Of a stretch of 64,000 bases of DNA, positions 3,700 to 16,007 are shown in pieces. How positions within the stretch are numbered: the stretch's first letter is position 1; each line of letters begins with the position of its first letter. The stretch is from Microbacterium sp. zg-Y818 (lineage in GTDB: Bacteria > Actinomycetota > Actinomycetes > Actinomycetales > Microbacteriaceae): the NCBI RefSeq assembly GCF_030246905.1, contig NZ_CP126741.1:2914001-2978000 (forward strand). Reading direction: 5' to 3'. Under the pieces are notes generated by a model. It saw only the letters and a list, made by a program, of their open reading frames with translations, was not told where the DNA came from and searched no databases. Position numbers and translations under genes: made by a program.

Positions 3700-4191
3700 C
3701 TAGGCGGTGGCGGGCTTGGCCGCGGGCTTCGGCTTCGGCGCGCGCGCACGCGTCGTCCGGGCGCCCTCGGCGAGCTTGCCCTCGGGCTGTGTCGGCACCG
3801 CCGCCGTGGCGAGAGTCACGACGTCGGCGGGGTGCTCGCCGGCATCCACCTGCAGCGCCTGCACCAGCGCGAGGCCGTGCCGCGTGGTGAGCACCACCCG
3901 CTGGAACTCCGGGTGCCCCTCGAGGTCGATGACGACGCCGGGCAGGTGACGGCGGACGACGACGAAGTCCACACCGTTGACCGACTTCCATGTGCCGATG
4001 GCGACGACCCCGGGAAACCGCGTGCCGGGACTCTGGATGCCGCGCAACCACGTCCACGGATCGTCGATCAGCTGCACCTTGGCGATCGTGTCGCGTTCGA
4101 CGATCACATTCCCCTTGCGGAATGCGAGGGCGCGCTCGGTCCCCGACAGCACCACTTCGAGGCGGGTCGAGTCCAGGAGCAACGTCACCAT
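3700..4191 (-). CDS. conserved hypothetical protein with basic Ala/Pro-rich tail
   Basis: A 163-residue protein with an ATG start, transcribed away from fbiC. Residues 1-115 are beta-rich and read like a small PH-like or barrel domain (LDSTRLEVVLSGTERALAF, then WTWLRGIQSPGTRFPG). The last 30 residues are a low-complexity KPKPAAKPATA tail of the kind seen in nucleoid- or envelope-associated actinobacterial proteins. I do not recognise a named family and give no function. Confidence 0.7.
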   Translation of the reverse strand: MVTLLLDSTRLEVVLSGTERALAFRKGNVIVERDTIAKVQLIDDPWTWLRGIQSPGTRFPGVVAIGTWKSVNGVDFVVVRRHLPGVVIDLEGHPEFQRVVLTTRHGLALVQALQVDAGEHPADVVTLATAAVPTQPEGKLAEGARTTRARAPKPKPAAKPATA

Positions 4192-4286: not shown

Positions 4287-6761
4287 GTGACCCTTGCGCA
4301 GCCCGCTTCCCCGGCGGCGACAGTCCATGACACCCTCGGCAGGGCGGCTTCCGGCGCCCTGCTCGACGCCGTCGACGCCGAGGTGCTGCTGCAGGCGTCG
4401 GGTGAGGCGTTCGACCGGCTGCTCGACCTCGCGGCGCGACTGCGAGACGAGGGCCTGGCGGCATCCGGTCGCCCTGGGGTCATCACCTACTCCCGCAAGG
4501 TCTTCGTTCCGCTGACGACCCTGTGCCGCGACCGCTGCCACTACTGCGTGTTCGTCGACACGCCGGGCCAGCTGGCCGCTCGACACAAGCCGTTGTACAT
4601 GACCGATGCGCAGGTGCTGTCGGTGGTGCGGCAGGGGCAGGCGCACGGATGCAAAGAAGCGCTGCTGACCCTCGGCGACCGCCCCGAGGACCGTTGGCCC
4701 GCCGCGCGCGCCTGGCTCGACGACCACGGCTATACCTCGACGCTGGATTACGTCGGCGCGATGGCCCGGCTCATCACGGCCGAGACCGGCATGCTCGTGC
4801 ATCTGAACCCCGGGGTGATGGGCTACGAGGAGATCCTGGCGCTGCGGCCGACCGCCCCCTCGATGGGCATGATGCTCGAGACCACCTCGACCCGCCTGTA
4901 CACCGAGCCCGGGCAGGTGCACTTCGGCTCGCCCGACAAGGATCCCGCCGTGCGGCTGCGGGTCATCGACGACGCCGGCCGGGCGCGGGTGCCGTTCACC
5001 ACCGGCATCCTCGTCGGCATCGGCGAGACGCTGCGGGACCGGGCGGAGTCGCTCGTGGCCATCCGCGACGCGCACGAGCGCCACGGGCACGTGCAGGAGG
5101 TGATCGTGCAGAACTTCCGCGCCAAGCCGCAGACGGCGGCGCAGTCCGCACCGGACGCGGACCTGCGGGAGTATGTCGCGGCCGTCGCCGTTGCGCGTCT
5201 CGTGCTGGGACCGCGCATGCGGGTGCAGGTGCCGCCGAACCTGTCGGATCCGACGGAGTTCGCTCTGCTGGTGCGGGCGGGCGCGGACGACTGGGGCGGG
5301 GTGTCGCCCGTGACCGCCGACCACGTCAACCCCGAGCGACCCTGGCCGCACCTGGACGACCTGGCGCGCCGCACCGCCGACCTCGGCTTCGAACTGCGTG
5401 AGCGGCTCACCGCCCACCCGGAGTACATCCGGCCCGCGGACGGGTGGCTCGACCCGGCGATGCACGCGCCGGTCGCGGCGCTGGCCGACCCGGTGTCGGG
5501 GCTTGCGGCGGTTGCGAGCGCGGCGGGCGCGGCCGGCGGCTCGGCGGAGGCCGGCGTGCACAGCGTCGGCGATCCCCGCGAGGGCGCGGCCGACGGCCCG
5601 GTTTCGGGGTCGCCCGAGGCGGATCGGCGACGTTCTGCACGCCGAGGCGCCGGAGCCACCATCGCCCGCCTCGCCGAAGAAGCGGCCGACGACCCGCTGA
5701 GCCTCGGCGACGACGACTGGGCCCGGCTGCTGCTGGCCACCGGCACCGACCTCGAGTCCGTCGTCGCGACCGCCGACGACGTGCGGCGCTACACGGTGGG
5801 CGAGGCGGTGAGCTTGGTGGTCAACCGCAACCTGACCTCCAGCGGCTTCCGCTCGCGCGGCGCGGCCGCGCCCGACGAGTTCGACCTCGCCGACGTCGCA
5901 GCGATCGCCGCCGACGCGGCCGATCTCGGCGCGACCGAACTGTGCGTCCAGGGCCTGCTGCCGGCGACCGAGGACCCGGCCGGCTACCTGGCCATCGCCC
6001 GCGCGGTGAAGGCCGCGGCCCCCGGCATCCACCTGCACGCCTACCGCCCGCAGGACGTATGGGACCTCGCCGACCGCGGGGGTCTGGGCCTGGACGGCGC
6101 CCTCGCGGCGATGCGCGACGCCGGCGTCGACACGGTGCCCGGCACCGGTGTGAAGGTCGCCGCCGAGCGGGTGCGCGCCGCCCTCTTCCCCACCGACCTC
6201 GAGGTCGACCGCTGGATCGAGGGCATCTCCGCCGCCCATCGCCACGGCTTCCGCTCGACGAGCGTGCTGTTCTACGGGCACGTCGAGACGGTCGCAGAGC
6301 GCGTCGCGCACCTGCGTCTCCTCCGCCGCCTGCAGGATGCCGCGACGGCCGCCCGCGCCGGAGGCGGCTTCACCGAGTTCGTGCCGATCCCGCTGCCCGC
6401 CCCAGCCGGCGGCGTGCCGCTCGTGCCCGGGCGCGCGGCCATCGACGAGCACCGGGCCATGGTCGCGGTCGCGCGACTGGCCCTCAACGGCTCGATCCCG
6501 CACATCCAGGTGCCGTGGCCGCGCCTCGGCCGGGATGCCGCCGCCGTGCTGCTGCGGGCGGGCGCCGACGACCTGGGCGGGACGCTGCTCGACGGGCGCG
6601 TGCGCCCGGACACCGGCATCGAGCACGGGCAGGAGCTGGCGGCATCCGACGCCGCACGCATCGCCGCGCGGCTGATGCGGCCCTTCCGTCTGCGGACCAC
6701 CGACTACGGCACCCCGACGCCCGCCACCGCCGCCCCGCCCGCACCGGCGAGCACCCCGTGA
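4287..6761 (+). CDS. fbiC: FbiC/CofGH-like 7,8-didemethyl-8-hydroxy-5-deazariboflavin (FO) synthase with degenerate CofH half
   Basis: The GTG start gives 824 residues, near the usual 850 or so of actinobacterial FbiC. FbiC makes FO, the chromophore of coenzyme F420, using two radical-SAM domains. The N-terminal CofG half is intact: C80, C84 and C87 in CRDRCHYC, then NPGVMGYEE and a TGILVGIGET glycine motif. The C-terminal CofH half is recognisable by NRN, HAYRPQDV, PGTGVKV, YGHVET and GGFTEFVPIPLP. Where CofH should carry its CX3CX2C cluster, residues 513-535 read NRNLTSSGFRSRGAAAPDEF with no cysteine and about nine residues fewer than the usual protein. No alternative frame restores the motif. 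The interdomain linker (about 400-480) is Ala/Gly-rich. It is the first gene of a tightly overlapping operon. FO synthase activity is therefore doubtful without another CofH. Confidence 0.88.
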   Translation: MTLAQPASPAATVHDTLGRAASGALLDAVDAEVLLQASGEAFDRLLDLAARLRDEGLAASGRPGVITYSRKVFVPLTTLCRDRCHYCVFVDTPGQLAARHKPLYMTDAQVLSVVRQGQAHGCKEALLTLGDRPEDRWPAARAWLDDHGYTSTLDYVGAMARLITAETGMLVHLNPGVMGYEEILALRPTAPSMGMMLETTSTRLYTEPGQVHFGSPDKDPAVRLRVIDDAGRARVPFTTGILVGIGETLRDRAESLVAIRDAHERHGHVQEVIVQNFRAKPQTAAQSAPDADLREYVAAVAVARLVLGPRMRVQVPPNLSDPTEFALLVRAGADDWGGVSPVTADHVNPERPWPHLDDLARRTADLGFELRERLTAHPEYIRPADGWLDPAMHAPVAALADPVSGLAAVASAAGAAGGSAEAGVHSVGDPREGAADGPVSGSPEADRRRSARRGAGATIARLAEEAADDPLSLGDDDWARLLLATGTDLESVVATADDVRRYTVGEAVSLVVNRNLTSSGFRSRGAAAPDEFDLADVAAIAADAADLGATELCVQGLLPATEDPAGYLAIARAVKAAAPGIHLHAYRPQDVWDLADRGGLGLDGALAAMRDAGVDTVPGTGVKVAAERVRAALFPTDLEVDRWIEGISAAHRHGFRSTSVLFYGHVETVAERVAHLRLLRRLQDAATAARAGGGFTEFVPIPLPAPAGGVPLVPGRAAIDEHRAMVAVARLALNGSIPHIQVPWPRLGRDAAAVLLRAGADDLGGTLLDGRVRPDTGIEHGQELAASDAARIAARLMRPFRLRTTDYGTPTPATAAPPAPASTP

Positions 6762-8245
6762 CCGAGCACGTCGAGGTCGCCGTCGTCGGCGCGGGCTTCG
6801 CCGGACTCGGCATGGCGATTGCGCTGCGCCGCGCGGGCCGCGAATCGTTCGTGATCCTGGAGCGCGCGGCATCCGTCGGGGGCACGTGGCGCGACAACAC
6901 CTACCCCGGCGTCGCCTGCGACGTGCCCTCGCACCTCTACGGCTTCGCCACCCACCCGAACCCGGACTGGTCGGGGCTCTACGCCACCGGCACCGAGATC
7001 CACGGGTACCTCGAGCAGGTCGCCGAGGCCGAAGACCTGGGCGACCGCCTGCGCCTGCGCACCCCCCTGCTGTCGGCGCGGTGGGATGCCGACTCGGCCC
7101 GCTGGATCCTCGACACCGGATCCGGCGCGCTCACCGCCGACGCACTGGTGCTGGCCTGCGGTCGGCTCACCGAGCCGTCGATCCCAGAGATCCCCGGGCT
7201 CGAGCAGTTCGCCGGGCCCATCTTCCACTCCGCGCGGTGGGATCACCGCGCCGACCTCGCGGGCGCGCACGTGGCGGTCGTCGGCACCGGCGCGAGCGCG
7301 GTGCAGCTGGTGCCGCGGCTGGCCGACATCGCCGGGCACGTGACGCTGTTCCAGCGGACGCCGGCCTGGATCGTGCCGCGCGGCGAGCGCCGGTACGACG
7401 ACGCCGAACGCGCACGCTTCGCCGCGCATCCCGAGGAGCTCGCCGCGCTCCGCGCCGCCCTGTACGTCGAGGGCGAGGCCCGGTACGCATCGCGGTCGGG
7501 CGACGCCGCGGCATCCGCTGCCGCGCGTGAGGTCGCGCTCACACACCTCGCGGCGCAGGTGCCCGACCCCGCGCTGCGCGCAGCCCTCACCCCCGGCTAC
7601 GCGTTCGGATGCAAGCGGGTGCTGCTCTCGGACGAGTTCTACCCCGCGGTCGCCTCCCCCGCAGTCACCCTCGAGCCCTCGGCCCTGGCGGCCGTCGAGG
7701 GCGGCGAGCTGGTGGCGGCATCCGGCGCCCGCCACCGCGTCGACGCCCTCGTGCTCGCCACCGGGTTCGTCTCGCAGCGCCAGCCCTACGCCGACCTCGT
7801 CACCGGCGAGCACGGGCAGAGCCTGGCGGAGCACTGGTCCGCGGGCATGACGTCGTTCGCGTCGACGGTGGTCGCAGGCTTCCCGAACCTCTTCGTGCTC
7901 GACGGGCCGAACGCCTCGCTCGGGCACAACTCCGCCGTGCTCATGCTCGAAGAGCAGGCCGCGTACGCCGTGCGCGCCCTCGCGCGTCGCGCCGCCGCGC
8001 CGCGCGGCGTGCTGCGCGTGCACCCGGATGCCGAGGCCGACTACACCGCCGAGATCGCGCGGGCCGCCCGCACTACGCCGTGGCTGACCGGCGGATGCGA
8101 CAACTGGTACGTCGACCGTGGCAGGCTGACCCTGCTGTGGCCCGGCACCGTCGACGCGTTCCGCGCGCGGCTGGCGCGGGCAGACGGATCCGAATTCACG
8201 ACCACCCCCGCCCGCACCGGCGGGGACGAGAGGAGAACGTCATGA
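6758..8245 (+). CDS. flavin-containing (Baeyer-Villiger-type) monooxygenase
   Basis: The GTG start overlaps the fbiC stop (GTGA) and gives 495 residues. The FAD Rossmann motif is GAGFAGLGMA at the N-terminus, followed by GGTWRDNTYPGVACDVPSHLY, which is split here only by its position at about 42-62. The Baeyer-Villiger fingerprint FxGxxxHxxxW is present as FAGPIFHSARW, and the NADPH motif is GTGASAVQLVP. The family inserts oxygen next to ketones or oxidises heteroatoms using NADPH and O2. Its place between fbiC and an F420-dependent enzyme is unusual and suggests co-regulation with F420 metabolism, but the substrate is unknown. Confidence 0.9.
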   Translation: MTEHVEVAVVGAGFAGLGMAIALRRAGRESFVILERAASVGGTWRDNTYPGVACDVPSHLYGFATHPNPDWSGLYATGTEIHGYLEQVAEAEDLGDRLRLRTPLLSARWDADSARWILDTGSGALTADALVLACGRLTEPSIPEIPGLEQFAGPIFHSARWDHRADLAGAHVAVVGTGASAVQLVPRLADIAGHVTLFQRTPAWIVPRGERRYDDAERARFAAHPEELAALRAALYVEGEARYASRSGDAAASAAAREVALTHLAAQVPDPALRAALTPGYAFGCKRVLLSDEFYPAVASPAVTLEPSALAAVEGGELVAASGARHRVDALVLATGFVSQRQPYADLVTGEHGQSLAEHWSAGMTSFASTVVAGFPNLFVLDGPNASLGHNSAVLMLEEQAAYAVRALARRAAAPRGVLRVHPDAEADYTAEIARAARTTPWLTGGCDNWYVDRGRLTLLWPGTVDAFRARLARADGSEFTTTPARTGGDERRTS

Positions 8246-9276
8246 CGCAGGGACAGGCTCAGGGAGCCGACGGCATCCGCCTGGGCTACAAGGCGTCGGC
8301 CGAGCAGTTCGACCCCTCCCAGCTCGCCGACTTCGCGGTGCTGGCCGAGGAGGTCGGGTTCGACTCGGTGTTCATCTCCGACCACTTCCAGCCGTGGATG
8401 CACGAGGGCGGCCACGCCCCCGCTGCCCTGCCGTGGCTCGGCGCGGTGGGCGCTCGCACCTCGCGGGTGCTGCTGGGGACCTCGGTGCTGACGCCCACGT
8501 TCCGCTACCACCCGGCCGTCGTCGCGCAGGCGTTCGCCACACTCGGGGTGATGTTCCCGGGGCGCATGATCCTCGGGGTCGGCACGGGCGAGGCGTTGAA
8601 CGAGGTCACGCTCGGACTGGACTGGCCCGACCCGCCCGAGCGCTTCCAGCGCATGAAAGAGGCCATCACGCTCATCCGCGAGCTGTGGACGAACGACCGG
8701 GTGACGTTCGAGGGCAACTTCTGGAGTGTGAAGGATGCCACCGTCTACGACCGTCCCGACCAGCCGGTGCCGATCTACATCGGCGCGTCGGGACCGGCGG
8801 CGACCCGCCTCGCCGGTCGCATCGCCGACGGCTGGATCACCACGAGCGGCAAGGATCCGGCGCTGTACACCGACAAGCTGCTCCCCGCTCTCGAGGAGGG
8901 TCTCGAGAAGGCCGGCCGCACCGACGCCGACGTCGACACGCTCATCGAGGTGAAGGTCTCGTTCGCCCCGACCCGCGAAGAGGCGCTGGAGAAGACCCGC
9001 TTCTGGGCGCCGCTCGCGCTGTCGCCGGAGGAGAAGACCGGCATCCACGACCCCATCGAGATGCAGCGGCGGGCCGACGAACTGCCGATCGAGCGCGCGG
9101 CGTCGCGGTTCATCGTCTCCACCGATCCGGACGAGCACGTCGAGCAGATCGCCCGGTACGTCGACCTCGGGTTCCGCCACCTGGTGTTCCACGACCCGGG
9201 CCACGACCAGGAGACATTCCTGCGCACCTACGGCACCGAGATCCTGCCGCGCCTGCGGGCGCGGTTCGGTCAGTGA
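8242..9276 (+). CDS. fgd: F420-dependent glucose-6-phosphate dehydrogenase-like LLM-class oxidoreductase
   Basis: A 344-residue luciferase-like TIM-barrel protein with an ATG start overlapping the previous stop, and GAGGAGAACG as ribosome site. Motifs include FISDHFQPW, TSVLTPTFRYHP, LGVGTGEALNE, YIGASGPAA and GWITTSGKDP, which fit the FGD/Hmd subgroup. FGD reduces F420 with glucose-6-phosphate, giving 6-phosphogluconolactone and F420H2. The operon with fbiC and cofC supports F420 use. A related F420-dependent sugar or alcohol dehydrogenase cannot be excluded. Confidence 0.85.
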   Translation: MTQGQAQGADGIRLGYKASAEQFDPSQLADFAVLAEEVGFDSVFISDHFQPWMHEGGHAPAALPWLGAVGARTSRVLLGTSVLTPTFRYHPAVVAQAFATLGVMFPGRMILGVGTGEALNEVTLGLDWPDPPERFQRMKEAITLIRELWTNDRVTFEGNFWSVKDATVYDRPDQPVPIYIGASGPAATRLAGRIADGWITTSGKDPALYTDKLLPALEEGLEKAGRTDADVDTLIEVKVSFAPTREEALEKTRFWAPLALSPEEKTGIHDPIEMQRRADELPIERAASRFIVSTDPDEHVEQIARYVDLGFRHLVFHDPGHDQETFLRTYGTEILPRLRARFGQ

Positions 9277-10499
9277 CTCCGGTCGACACGCCGGTGGGCG
9301 ACGGGCCGGGGGCGACGGGAGCCGTGCGCCCCGGCGCCTCGAACGGCGAGGGCCACGGCGACGCCGACGCCGACGCCGTCGACGCCGACTGGATCGTGAT
9401 CGTGCCGGTGAAGCCGGCCGAGGCCGGCAAGTCGCGACTCGCCGTGCCGGGGATCGATCGCGAGGCGCTGGCCCGCGCCATCGCCCGCGACACCCTCGCC
9501 GCGGTCGCCCGCACCCCGGGCGTCGCGCGGGTGATCGTGGTCAGCAGCGACCCGGATGCCGCGGCCACCGTGGCCGGCGACCCCGACGGCGCCCCCGTGG
9601 AGATCGTGGGAGACCCGGGCGAAGGGCTCGACGCCGCCGTGGCGATGGGGGTCGCGGGGTTCTCCGGCCGCGCCCGTGCCGCACTCCTGGGCGACCTGCC
9701 CGCGCTGCGGCCCGACGAGCTCGCGAGCGCGCTGCGCTCCGCCGCCCGTCACCGCCGCGCGGTGGTGGGGGATGCAGAAGGGACCGGATCGACCCTGGTC
9801 ACGGCCTCGGGCGGACTGGCGTGGCGGTCGGCGTTCGGCACGGGCTCATTCGGCCGGCACCGCAAGCTCGGCGCCGTGGCGGTGACCGCGCCCGCGGCAT
9901 CCGGCCTGCGCCGCGACGTGGACACCCTGCAGCAGCTGCGCACGGCCGAAGACGTCGGGGTGGGACCGCGCACCTCGGCACTGCTACACGCGGCCCGCCG
10001 TGGAGCCGACGCGGTGCTCACCACCGCGAGGCTGCGGCTGCGTGAGATGGCCCAGCACGACCTCGACGAGATGGCCGCCCTGCTGGGCGATCCCGCGGTG
10101 ATGCGCTACTACCCCGCCCCGTTCACCCGCGAGCAGGCGGCCGCGTGGATCGAGCGCAACCAGAGCCGCTACCGCGACGAGGGCTTCGGCCTGTGGATCG
10201 TCGAAGACCACGACGGCGCGTTCGTCGGCGACTGCGGCCTCACCTGGCAGCGGATGGGCACGCGGCGGGTGCTGGAGGTGGGGTATCACGTGGCGCCGCG
10301 CTTCCAGCGGCGCGGCTACGCCAGTGAGGCCGCCGCGGCGGCCCGGGATCTGGCGCGCTCGCTGGGCTTCGGCGAGCTGCGGGCACTCATCCACCCGCAC
10401 AACGCCGCGTCGACGCGGGTGGCGACGAAGATCGGCATGCACCGGGATGGCGCCGAGTCCGCCCTCACCGGCATCACTGTCATGCGCATGGAGCTGTAG
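9273..10499 (+). CDS. cofC: CofC/FbiD guanylyltransferase fused to a GNAT acetyltransferase
   Basis: One continuous 408-residue frame from a GTG that overlaps the fgd stop. Residues about 40-230 are CofC: VIVPVKPAEAGKSRL, ALLGDLPALRPDEL, EGTGSTLV, FGTGSFGRHRKLGA. CofC/FbiD activates the phospho-C3 acid (PEP in actinobacteria) with GTP for F420 assembly. From about residue 249 a RimJ/RimL-type GNAT domain follows: TTARLRLREM, GYHVAPRFQRRGYASEAA, IHPHNAASTRVATKIGM. Normal CofC is about 210 residues and single-domain. The first 40 residues are an Asp/Ala low-complexity leader (DADADAVDAD). No internal stop or start separates the domains, so a fusion is the simplest reading. The acetyl acceptor is unknown. 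Confidence 0.87.
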   Translation: MTPVDTPVGDGPGATGAVRPGASNGEGHGDADADAVDADWIVIVPVKPAEAGKSRLAVPGIDREALARAIARDTLAAVARTPGVARVIVVSSDPDAAATVAGDPDGAPVEIVGDPGEGLDAAVAMGVAGFSGRARAALLGDLPALRPDELASALRSAARHRRAVVGDAEGTGSTLVTASGGLAWRSAFGTGSFGRHRKLGAVAVTAPAASGLRRDVDTLQQLRTAEDVGVGPRTSALLHAARRGADAVLTTARLRLREMAQHDLDEMAALLGDPAVMRYYPAPFTREQAAAWIERNQSRYRDEGFGLWIVEDHDGAFVGDCGLTWQRMGTRRVLEVGYHVAPRFQRRGYASEAAAAARDLARSLGFGELRALIHPHNAASTRVATKIGMHRDGAESALTGITVMRMEL

Positions 10500-15026: not shown

Positions 15027-16007
15027 TCAGCGAGCGGTGGCCTCGGCCGCGGCCAGCGCGGCGTCGGCCATCGCAGCGGATGCCGCGACATCGCGCATCC
15101 ACAGCGGGGTGACGACCGCGCGCACGCCCTGCGCATCGACCTCGGCGGCGAGGGGAGCGTCCTCCTGTGCGATCAGCCAGGCATCCAGCACGCCGCCGTC
15201 GCGGCGGGCGCCGTAGAGCCCCGCCACCGCAGCGGCGGACGTCGCCACGCCGATCGCCGTGAGGCAGACATCGGCCATCCCCCGCACGACGGACCCGCCG
15301 ATGATCGGCGACACCCCGACCACCCGGGCGGCCGTGTCCGCCAGCGCTTCGCGGATCCCGGGCACGGCGAGGATCGGGCCGATCGACACGACGGGGTTCG
15401 ACGGTGCGAGCAGCACGACGTCGGCATCCGCGATCGCCTGGACGACGCCGGGCGCGGGACGCGCCGATCGGATGCCGGGGTTGTCGAAGCCGAGCGGGGC
15501 GAGCTGCGCACGGTGGCGCGTCCACCACTCCTGGAAGTGCATCGCGTCGCCGCCGGACACTCGAACGTGGGTGTCGACCTCGGTGTCGGTCATCGGCAGC
15601 ATCCGCACGCCGAGCGGCCACCGGCGCGAGAGCCGCTCGACGACCTGTGTCGGGGTGAGCCCTTCGCGCAGCCACCCGGTGCGCGCGAGGTGGGTGCCGA
15701 GGTCGAGGTCGCCGAGGGTGAACCATGGCCACCCGGCATCCCACTGCTGCAGTTCGCGGTTGACTCGCTCGGTGTCGCCGGCGCGGCCCCATCCCCGCTC
15801 GGTGTCGTTGACCCCGGCGAGCGCGTAGAGGATCGAGTCGACGTCGGGTTGCAGCCGCACACCCGAGAGCCACAGGTCGTCGCCGGTGTTGACGACGACC
15901 GTCGCCTCGGGGGCGCCGCGGCGGGCGAGCGCCTCACGGACGCCGAGGGTGAACTTCGAGCCGCCGACTCCACCGGCGAGCACGACGACGCGAGGAGAGG
16001 ATGTCAC
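15027..16007 (-). CDS. cofD: 2-phospho-L-lactate/PEP transferase CofD (FbiA)
   Basis: 326 residues. The N-terminal LAGGVGGSKFTLGV, VVNTGDDLWLSG, GWFTLGDLDLGTHL-type segment (here WFTLGDLDLGTHLARTGWL) and LLAPSNPVVSIGPIL are diagnostic of CofD. It joins the activated phospho-acid made by CofC to FO, giving dehydro-F420-0 or F420-0. It usually sits next to the gamma-glutamyl ligase CofE/FbiB. Here no cofE is adjacent; the neighbours are the fucose SDR and hemL. Confidence 0.93.
   Translation of the reverse strand: MTSSPRVVVLAGGVGGSKFTLGVREALARRGAPEATVVVNTGDDLWLSGVRLQPDVDSILYALAGVNDTERGWGRAGDTERVNRELQQWDAGWPWFTLGDLDLGTHLARTGWLREGLTPTQVVERLSRRWPLGVRMLPMTDTEVDTHVRVSGGDAMHFQEWWTRHRAQLAPLGFDNPGIRSARPAPGVVQAIADADVVLLAPSNPVVSIGPILAVPGIREALADTAARVVGVSPIIGGSVVRGMADVCLTAIGVATSAAAVAGLYGARRDGGVLDAWLIAQEDAPLAAEVDAQGVRAVVTPLWMRDVAASAAMADAALAAAEATAR

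Follow-up and report, generated by a model that had tools for sequence, protein, structure and literature searches.

The window analysed here, a stretch of 64,000 nt from Microbacterium sp. zg-Y818 (contig NZ_CP126741.1, positions 2,914,001 to 2,978,000), carries an fbiC-like gene in which a CofG domain is fused to a CofH domain without the cysteine motif of radical S-adenosylmethionine (SAM) enzymes, hereafter the cluster-less CofH. In the known pathway to the deazaflavin FO, as given in the text available from PMC8498797, CofH forms a p-hydroxybenzyl radical from tyrosine, which is added to ribityldiaminouracil. The gene order in the window is fbiC-monooxygenase-fgd-cofC, and the first two joints overlap by 4 nt (Table 1).

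Table 1. Features of the fbiC locus and its surroundings (window coordinates).
Feature	Position	Strand	Basis or remark
fbiC-like gene, CofG fused to cluster-less CofH	4287..6761	+	Open reading frame, family matches; GTG start proposed
CofG domain, radical-SAM, motif present	4485..5468	+	TIGR03550, 446.2 bits (cut-off 213.35)
CofG cluster motif CRDRCHYC	4524..4547	+	Alignment
Interdomain low-complexity linker, length varies among relatives	5469..5711	+	Alignment
Cluster-less CofH domain, near full-length match but under the CofH equivalog cut-off	5712..6710	+	Predicted local distance difference test (pLDDT) of model 93.7
NRN of the CofH half	5823-5831	+	
Cys-free loop where CX3CX2C is missing, LTSSGFRSRGAAAPDEF	5832..5882	+	Alignment, relatives
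Sole conserved Cys of cluster-less CofH (GATELCVQG)	5943..5945	+	Alignment
Type I Baeyer-Villiger-like flavin monooxygenase	6758..8245	+	GTG start overlaps fbiC stop (GTGA)
Baeyer-Villiger fingerprint FAGPIFHSARWD (FxGxxxHxxxW[P/D])	7208..7243	+	Translation
Arg287 of the monooxygenase	7616..7618	+	Aligns with KR motif of steroid monooxygenase
fgd	8242..9276	+	ATGA overlap with monooxygenase stop
CofC, with C-terminal GNAT domain in one frame	9279..10499	+	TIGR03552, 117.5 bits
CofD	15027..16007	-	Family match

At the loop site, the FbiC protein of the window reads VVNRNLTSSGFRSRGAAAPDEFDLADV, with no Cys after NRN, and the canonical FbiC from a member of the same order (L060) has CX3CX2C there. 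The first-pass annotation of this DNA had described the Cys-free stretch and put the loss at about nine residues; the loss stands, its size in the alignment with L060 being 11 residues. The remainder of CofH is recognisable, as had been stated: the match to the NCBIfam CofH model TIGR03551 spans nearly the whole half at 249.8-249.9 bits, below the cut-off of 374.1, and the half has the CofH/MqnE barrel fold and the C-terminal CofH domain. Structure models predict that cluster-less CofH proteins fold as full barrels. The CofG half, whose CRDRCHYC had also been seen correctly, passes the cut-off of TIGR03550 and has its CX3CX2C.

An alignment of related FbiC proteins at this site, which the first-pass annotation had proposed as a check, gave the same picture. 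In the genus of the window (taken as G001-G088 by genome numbering), 53 loci were read, which come from 39 genomes other than that of the window; in all of them the 22 residues that follow NRN are free of Cys, and CX3CX2C does not occur in the first 40. The 39 genomes are 38 of the 47 same-genus genomes with the gene, plus G404; for the remaining nine the evidence is the CofH score, which also falls under the TIGR03551 cut-off. Because the Cys-free loop recurs across these loci, it is not a sequencing error, and assembly or sequencing error was rejected as an explanation. A pseudogene was rejected on the intact frames and on the ratios of nonsynonymous to synonymous substitution (dN/dS) against five same-genus relatives (0.15-0.28 for the cluster-less CofH, 0.12-0.20 for CofG and 0.15-0.33 for the monooxygenase). 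The cluster-less CofH is under purifying selection where tested, that is, in these five comparisons.

The alignment of cluster-less CofH proteins contains one conserved Cys column only (GATELCVQG, 108 of 108 rows), which canonical CofH shares, and at most two Cys occur in 93 of the 108 rows. There is therefore no other conserved Cys motif for a [4Fe-4S] cluster, and an alternative cysteine motif, the possibility that the first-pass annotation had set against its own reading, was rejected. A single residue is held at 90% or more in both cluster-less and canonical CofH in 61 columns. Relative to canonical CofH, the cluster-less CofH is altered in the cluster loop and in two motifs, QGG (second Gly) and HAFS (Ser), and 13 columns have near-invariant residues special to it, for instance Arg for Ser in HAFS and DG for EE.

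The monooxygenase encoded behind the fbiC-like gene has 495 amino acids. Its closest solved relatives are the type I Baeyer-Villiger enzymes steroid monooxygenase (4ap3) and phenylacetone monooxygenase (1w4x, 2ylx), which it matches in sequence and fold over nearly its whole length, and it has the two-dinucleotide-domain fold. It carries the sequence FAGPIFHSARWD. The pattern FxGxxxHxxxW[P/D], with which this sequence agrees, is the defining fingerprint of type I Baeyer-Villiger monooxygenases. D55 and R287 are invariant in 40 of the monooxygenases linked to a cluster-less CofH and align with an Asp and an Arg of steroid monooxygenase; we take them to be equivalent to the catalytic Asp66 and Arg337 of phenylacetone monooxygenase.

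Linkage of the two genes was surveyed at 160 loci (L039-L198) with stretches of about 7 to 14 kb, the cluster-less CofH being defined by the missing CX3CX2C. A monooxygenase gene was found behind the cluster-less CofH on the same strand in 107 of 107 loci (105 distinct, as L062 = L089 and L064 = L081). Within the stretches read, it was found at none of 52 Cys-bearing CofH loci, which consist of 12 order-level loci and 40 picked across families (38 from the class list and two from Nocardia); the remaining locus (L075) is cut by a contig end before the motif. Nineteen further places in 15 genomes of a class-wide draw, with flanks of up to 1.5 kb, yielded five cluster-less CofH genes, all with the monooxygenase. 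No monooxygenase was seen there at five canonical CofH genes (one partial) or at eight Cys-bearing places 33-38% identical to canonical CofH; L231, also among the 19, is a partial match only.

The pair lies on one strand in all 87 loci measured, with a median gap of 66 nt. CofG is less constant in position: it is fused in 23 of these loci and lies outside the stretch in another 23; elsewhere it is on the strand of the pair, upstream at 18 loci and downstream at 17, or on the opposite strand (6 loci). On a FastTree tree the CofG arrangement changed at least six times, and the pair of cluster-less CofH and monooxygenase stayed together. When the open reading frames of 17 loci were used as queries on 84 loci (frames antisense to cluster-less CofH, monooxygenase and CofG set aside), cluster-less CofH and monooxygenase recurred in 83-84 and CofG in 61; by eye, no further conserved partner beyond CofG, such as an aminotransferase or a decarboxylase, was found among the matches in more than 16 of the 84. 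Within the genus, the monooxygenase is present in 47 of 47 genomes with the cluster-less CofH and in none of the 41 without it (E up to 1e-60; at most 10 candidates per genome). One genome, G060 (L216), has the flanking genes of the window locus (the small upstream gene and FGD) about 130 nt apart, and its 12-kb stretch gave no match to CofG, cluster-less CofH or monooxygenase. Additionally, monooxygenase divergence tracks that of the cluster-less CofH (Mantel r 0.884, n = 84).

Compared with 10 unlinked monooxygenases, the linked ones fall into one group; unlinked here means that the gene lies on another contig or at another position than the CofH match, or in a genome without such a match. 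Outside the linked group stand those of G092, G104, G105, G110, G135 and G136 (41-45% identity) and further copies, two in G135 (41% and 34%) and second copies in G025 (39%) and G011 (37%).

The cluster-less CofH variant is common to many lineages and occurs in at least 100 relatives. A search with the CofH half in 148 genomes (the window's own and 147 relatives) gave matches in 65, of which 48, the window's own included, belong to its genus; the cluster-less gene is present in 47 of the 88 same-genus relatives. Outside the genus, CofH is encoded as a separate protein that lacks the motif at four loci (families f15 and f8), and at three of them a separate CofG is also seen on the stretch. These four proteins served as queries for a scan of named genomes, and CX3CX2C is missing in all of the best 80 of 210 loci, which were kept. 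A family name was available for 77 of the 80, giving 13 families, and 17 genera are named, including Actinomycetospora, Gordonia, Williamsia, Nocardia, Promicromonospora, Kineococcus, Actinoplanes, Pseudonocardia, Humibacter, Subtercola, Rathayibacter and Arthrobacter. Acidobacteriaceae, counted among the 13, is represented by a single metagenome bin that may be a binning error; the locus on this contig (L101) groups with Tsukamurella, by horizontal transfer or through such an error. In the class-wide draw of 296 genomes, canonical CofH is present in 189; the cluster-less CofH, looked for in the genomes without a canonical one, is present in at least eight, one of which is the window genome. 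Two genera have both kinds across their species: g65 (two canonical loci and three with cluster-less CofH and monooxygenase read) and g111 (two and one). Such a distribution would be expected of interchangeable systems.

CX3CX2C is present in CofG at 84 of the 84 cluster-less CofH loci where CofG was found; the cyclising second step should therefore be unchanged. A profile search of the window genome (one contig, completeness 100) returned no second CofH over the TIGR03551 cut-off, the best match being the Cys-free half itself. Six other proteins came up in the radical-SAM search of this genome: HemW, PflA, an Rv2578c-type protein, RlmN and NrdG2, assigned by family scan, and one MiaB-like protein, read as such from its translation alone. 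Canonical CofH over the cut-off is also absent from 29 of 31 other genomes with a cluster-less CofH. In Actinoplanes lutulentus (L079/G148) the CofH model is matched twice, each time below the cut-off, and the match at L079 is cluster-less.

The rest of the F420 pathway is in place in the window genome, with CofC, CofD, CofE (G000:C1:2874137) and also FGD; the neighbours fgd, cofC and cofD, from which the first-pass annotation had argued for F420 use, are confirmed by family matches. CofD and CofE are found in 47 of 47 same-genus genomes with the cluster-less CofH, and CofE in 35 of 35 such genomes tested outside the genus. Among same-genus genomes without it, four have CofD (G002, G060, G065 and G076) and eight have CofE. 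The loci of these four (L213-L216) hold FGD-like, CofC-like, CofD and CofE genes, yet no CofH or FbiC match; CofG was not found on the stretches, and no genome-wide CofG search was made. These four strains may take up FO from neighbours.

We consider it probable that the monooxygenase and the cluster-less CofH replace the radical-SAM CofH, the first step of FO synthesis thereby being predicted to depend on O2, and radical-SAM CofG is likely kept for the second step. Production of FO or a variant by another enzyme was the one option of the first-pass annotation that gained support, and the candidate is the flavin monooxygenase, of which it had made no mention. The proposed chemistry derives from the enzyme families. 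The flavin-peroxide of the monooxygenase would attack 4-hydroxyphenylpyruvate (or 4-hydroxyphenylacetaldehyde) at its keto group, with migration of the 4-hydroxybenzyl group to oxygen, and the loss of oxalate (or formate) from the resulting 4-hydroxybenzyl ester would leave a p-quinone methide. The cluster-less CofH, with pyrimidine binding kept, would offer the nucleophilic C5 of 5-amino-6-ribitylaminouracil to the quinone methide, and the product would be the same 4-hydroxybenzyl adduct that CofH yields from tyrosine. CofG would cyclise this adduct to FO, from which CofC, CofD and CofE would then make F420. A barrel that lost the radical machinery and kept its binding residues is how a coupling template would be expected to look. 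Phenylacetone monooxygenase converts phenylacetone to benzyl acetate, and plant flavin monooxygenases of the YUCCA type use indole-3-pyruvate, which supports aryl-pyruvates as substrates. The exact substrate and the quinone-methide step are put forward tentatively, and we would sooner doubt them than rely on them. A second, non-radical and O2-dependent FO route across Actinomycetota, in which a p-quinone methide made by Baeyer-Villiger oxidation meets a cluster-free CofH template and feeds CofG, is a possibility that we take seriously, if at somewhat short of an even chance.

A number of observations weigh against the replacement of CofH by this pair. Two Nocardia genomes (L084/G151 and L097/G156) have a canonical FbiC plus the pair of cluster-less CofH and monooxygenase. 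Of the 84 cluster-less loci outside the genus, 5 have FGD on the stretch, 9 have CofC and 7 have CofD (1, 1 and 15, respectively, of the 52 canonical CofH loci), so that it is chiefly in the window's genus that other F420 genes cluster with the pair. The two genes of the pair are separated by 342-1460 nt in 9 of 87 loci. The strict fingerprint is found in 63 of the 107 linked monooxygenases; the others deviate at the last position (N, R, H, A or another residue) and sometimes elsewhere in the pattern as well. Cluster loss is a single change on the tree, on which the cluster-less proteins form one group, and the 107 loci are thus not 107 independent events. Common descent also accounts for part of the Mantel correlation. 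Greater independence can be claimed for the rearrangements that left the pair intact, for the joint absence of both genes in G060 and for the two genera in which either system occurs. The literature examined, in part as excerpts, contained no demonstration of F420 production by an organism with the cluster-less CofH. Kineococcus radiotolerans, whose record is a 100% match to the L059 query, appears in the excerpted text of PMC3288000 merely as a source of F420-reductase sequences.

Other explanations of the same data were considered. CofG, cluster-less CofH and monooxygenase could make a different deazaflavin, a modified FO from which CofC, CofD and CofE would build an F420 variant, and the 13 columns special to the cluster-less CofH could reflect such a changed substrate; this we find unlikely, as the downstream enzymes and FGD belong to ordinary families, and the occurrence of either system in species of two genera argues for the same product. 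Uptake of FO from other organisms, with CofG and cluster-less CofH decaying or otherwise employed, is decidedly improbable. It may occur in the genus, given the four genomes with CofD and CofE and no CofH or FbiC match, and the suggestion of the first-pass annotation that FO comes from outside may fit these; for the window strain it is unlikely because the conserved unit of CofG, cluster-less CofH and monooxygenase is kept. As the main account of strains with the cluster-less CofH it was rejected: selection is purifying on both CofH and CofG against the five relatives, the gene is present in 47 same-genus genomes and in the 80 named loci (best 80 of 210), and the CofG motif is retained wherever CofG was found.

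We give no greater credence to a cluster-less CofH that is an inactive scaffold, with the monooxygenase alone doing new chemistry, or to a monooxygenase engaged in an unrelated F420-linked oxidation, with a merely historical linkage. Such accounts can point to the monooxygenase and FGD sharing one operon-like run in the window and to a cluster-free barrel having no known catalyst. However, the rarity of FGD outside the genus (5 of 84 stretches) and the presence of a monooxygenase behind the cluster-less CofH at every locus examined speak against these accounts, and the 61 shared invariant columns suggest that a binding site was kept. That the cluster has other ligands, or that a normal CofH is encoded elsewhere in the genome as the first-pass annotation had considered, can be practically dismissed: nothing was found in favour of either, only one Cys is conserved, no CofH match in the one-contig genome is better than the Cys-free domain, and 29 of the 31 other genomes have no CofH over the cut-off.

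The proposed replacement of CofH by the monooxygenase and a cluster-free barrel can be set beside several known systems. The locus shares with FbiC, or CofG plus CofH, the domain order where fused, a CofG with its motif, the downstream genes and near full-length CofH homology (249.9 bits), and it differs in the absent CX3CX2C of CofH, the score under the cut-off and the monooxygenase that follows at every locus examined. An fbiC deletion in Streptomyces venezuelae is reported to abolish autofluorescence (PMC12282290). MqnE, the aminofutalosine synthase (PDB 6xi9, 6xig), is a radical-SAM enzyme of menaquinone synthesis and has its cluster intact, unlike the cluster-less CofH. The benzyl migration proposed for the window enzyme is of the type known from phenylacetone monooxygenase; the linked enzymes, however, form a group of their own apart from the 10 unlinked ones, and no matched structure is labelled as a cofactor-biosynthesis enzyme. 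We know of no other Baeyer-Villiger enzyme in cofactor biosynthesis, and this one would be the first if the proposal is true. PsgB, a 'HemN-related non-iron pseudo-SAM protein' (TIGR04419), is by its name also a radical-SAM homologue without an iron-sulfur site, but belongs to a different family from the cluster-less CofH. To our knowledge, it has no partner monooxygenase. Coproporphyrinogen III oxidation is likewise one step performed by an O2-using or an O2-independent enzyme, depending on the organism (PMC10965808, from the text available); no such pair was found described for F420, and here the old barrel is kept in cluster-free form. A literature search, with most subscription papers outside its reach, returned no report of a monooxygenase in FO synthesis, and papers joining FbiC and Baeyer-Villiger terms, among the literature searched and as far as their text was available, concern tuberculosis drug targets only.

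Further observations concern the surroundings of these genes. A GNAT acetyltransferase domain (PF13302, 123.2 bits) shares the open frame 9279-10499 with CofC, possibly as a fusion. A small protein without a Pfam match is encoded at 3700-4191 on the minus strand and lies near fbiC in 23 of 23 same-genus loci compared, at a distance of about 2.6 kb in L054. In L012, L020 and L030, the linker between CofG and the cluster-less CofH contains SLSER/SETKRP-like peptide units in repeated copies, a pattern that the invasion of a short DNA repeat might leave. An Rfam search of the window gave no match.

According to the accessible text of PMC8498797, every F420 producer studied relies for FO on one universal mechanism, in which two radical-SAM domains take part. 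The proposed route, if true, would break this rule and help to account for F420 synthesis in aerobic actinobacteria, and the capture of a quinone methide inside a former radical-SAM barrel would be a chemical precedent. The public annotation hides the variant, as close homologues are labelled 'FO synthase'. PMC11917521, in the text available, explains higher FO titres in oxygen-limited Escherichia coli by FO synthase possibly being sensitive to oxygen in itself; given this possible sensitivity, an FO route that uses oxygen could be of practical use.

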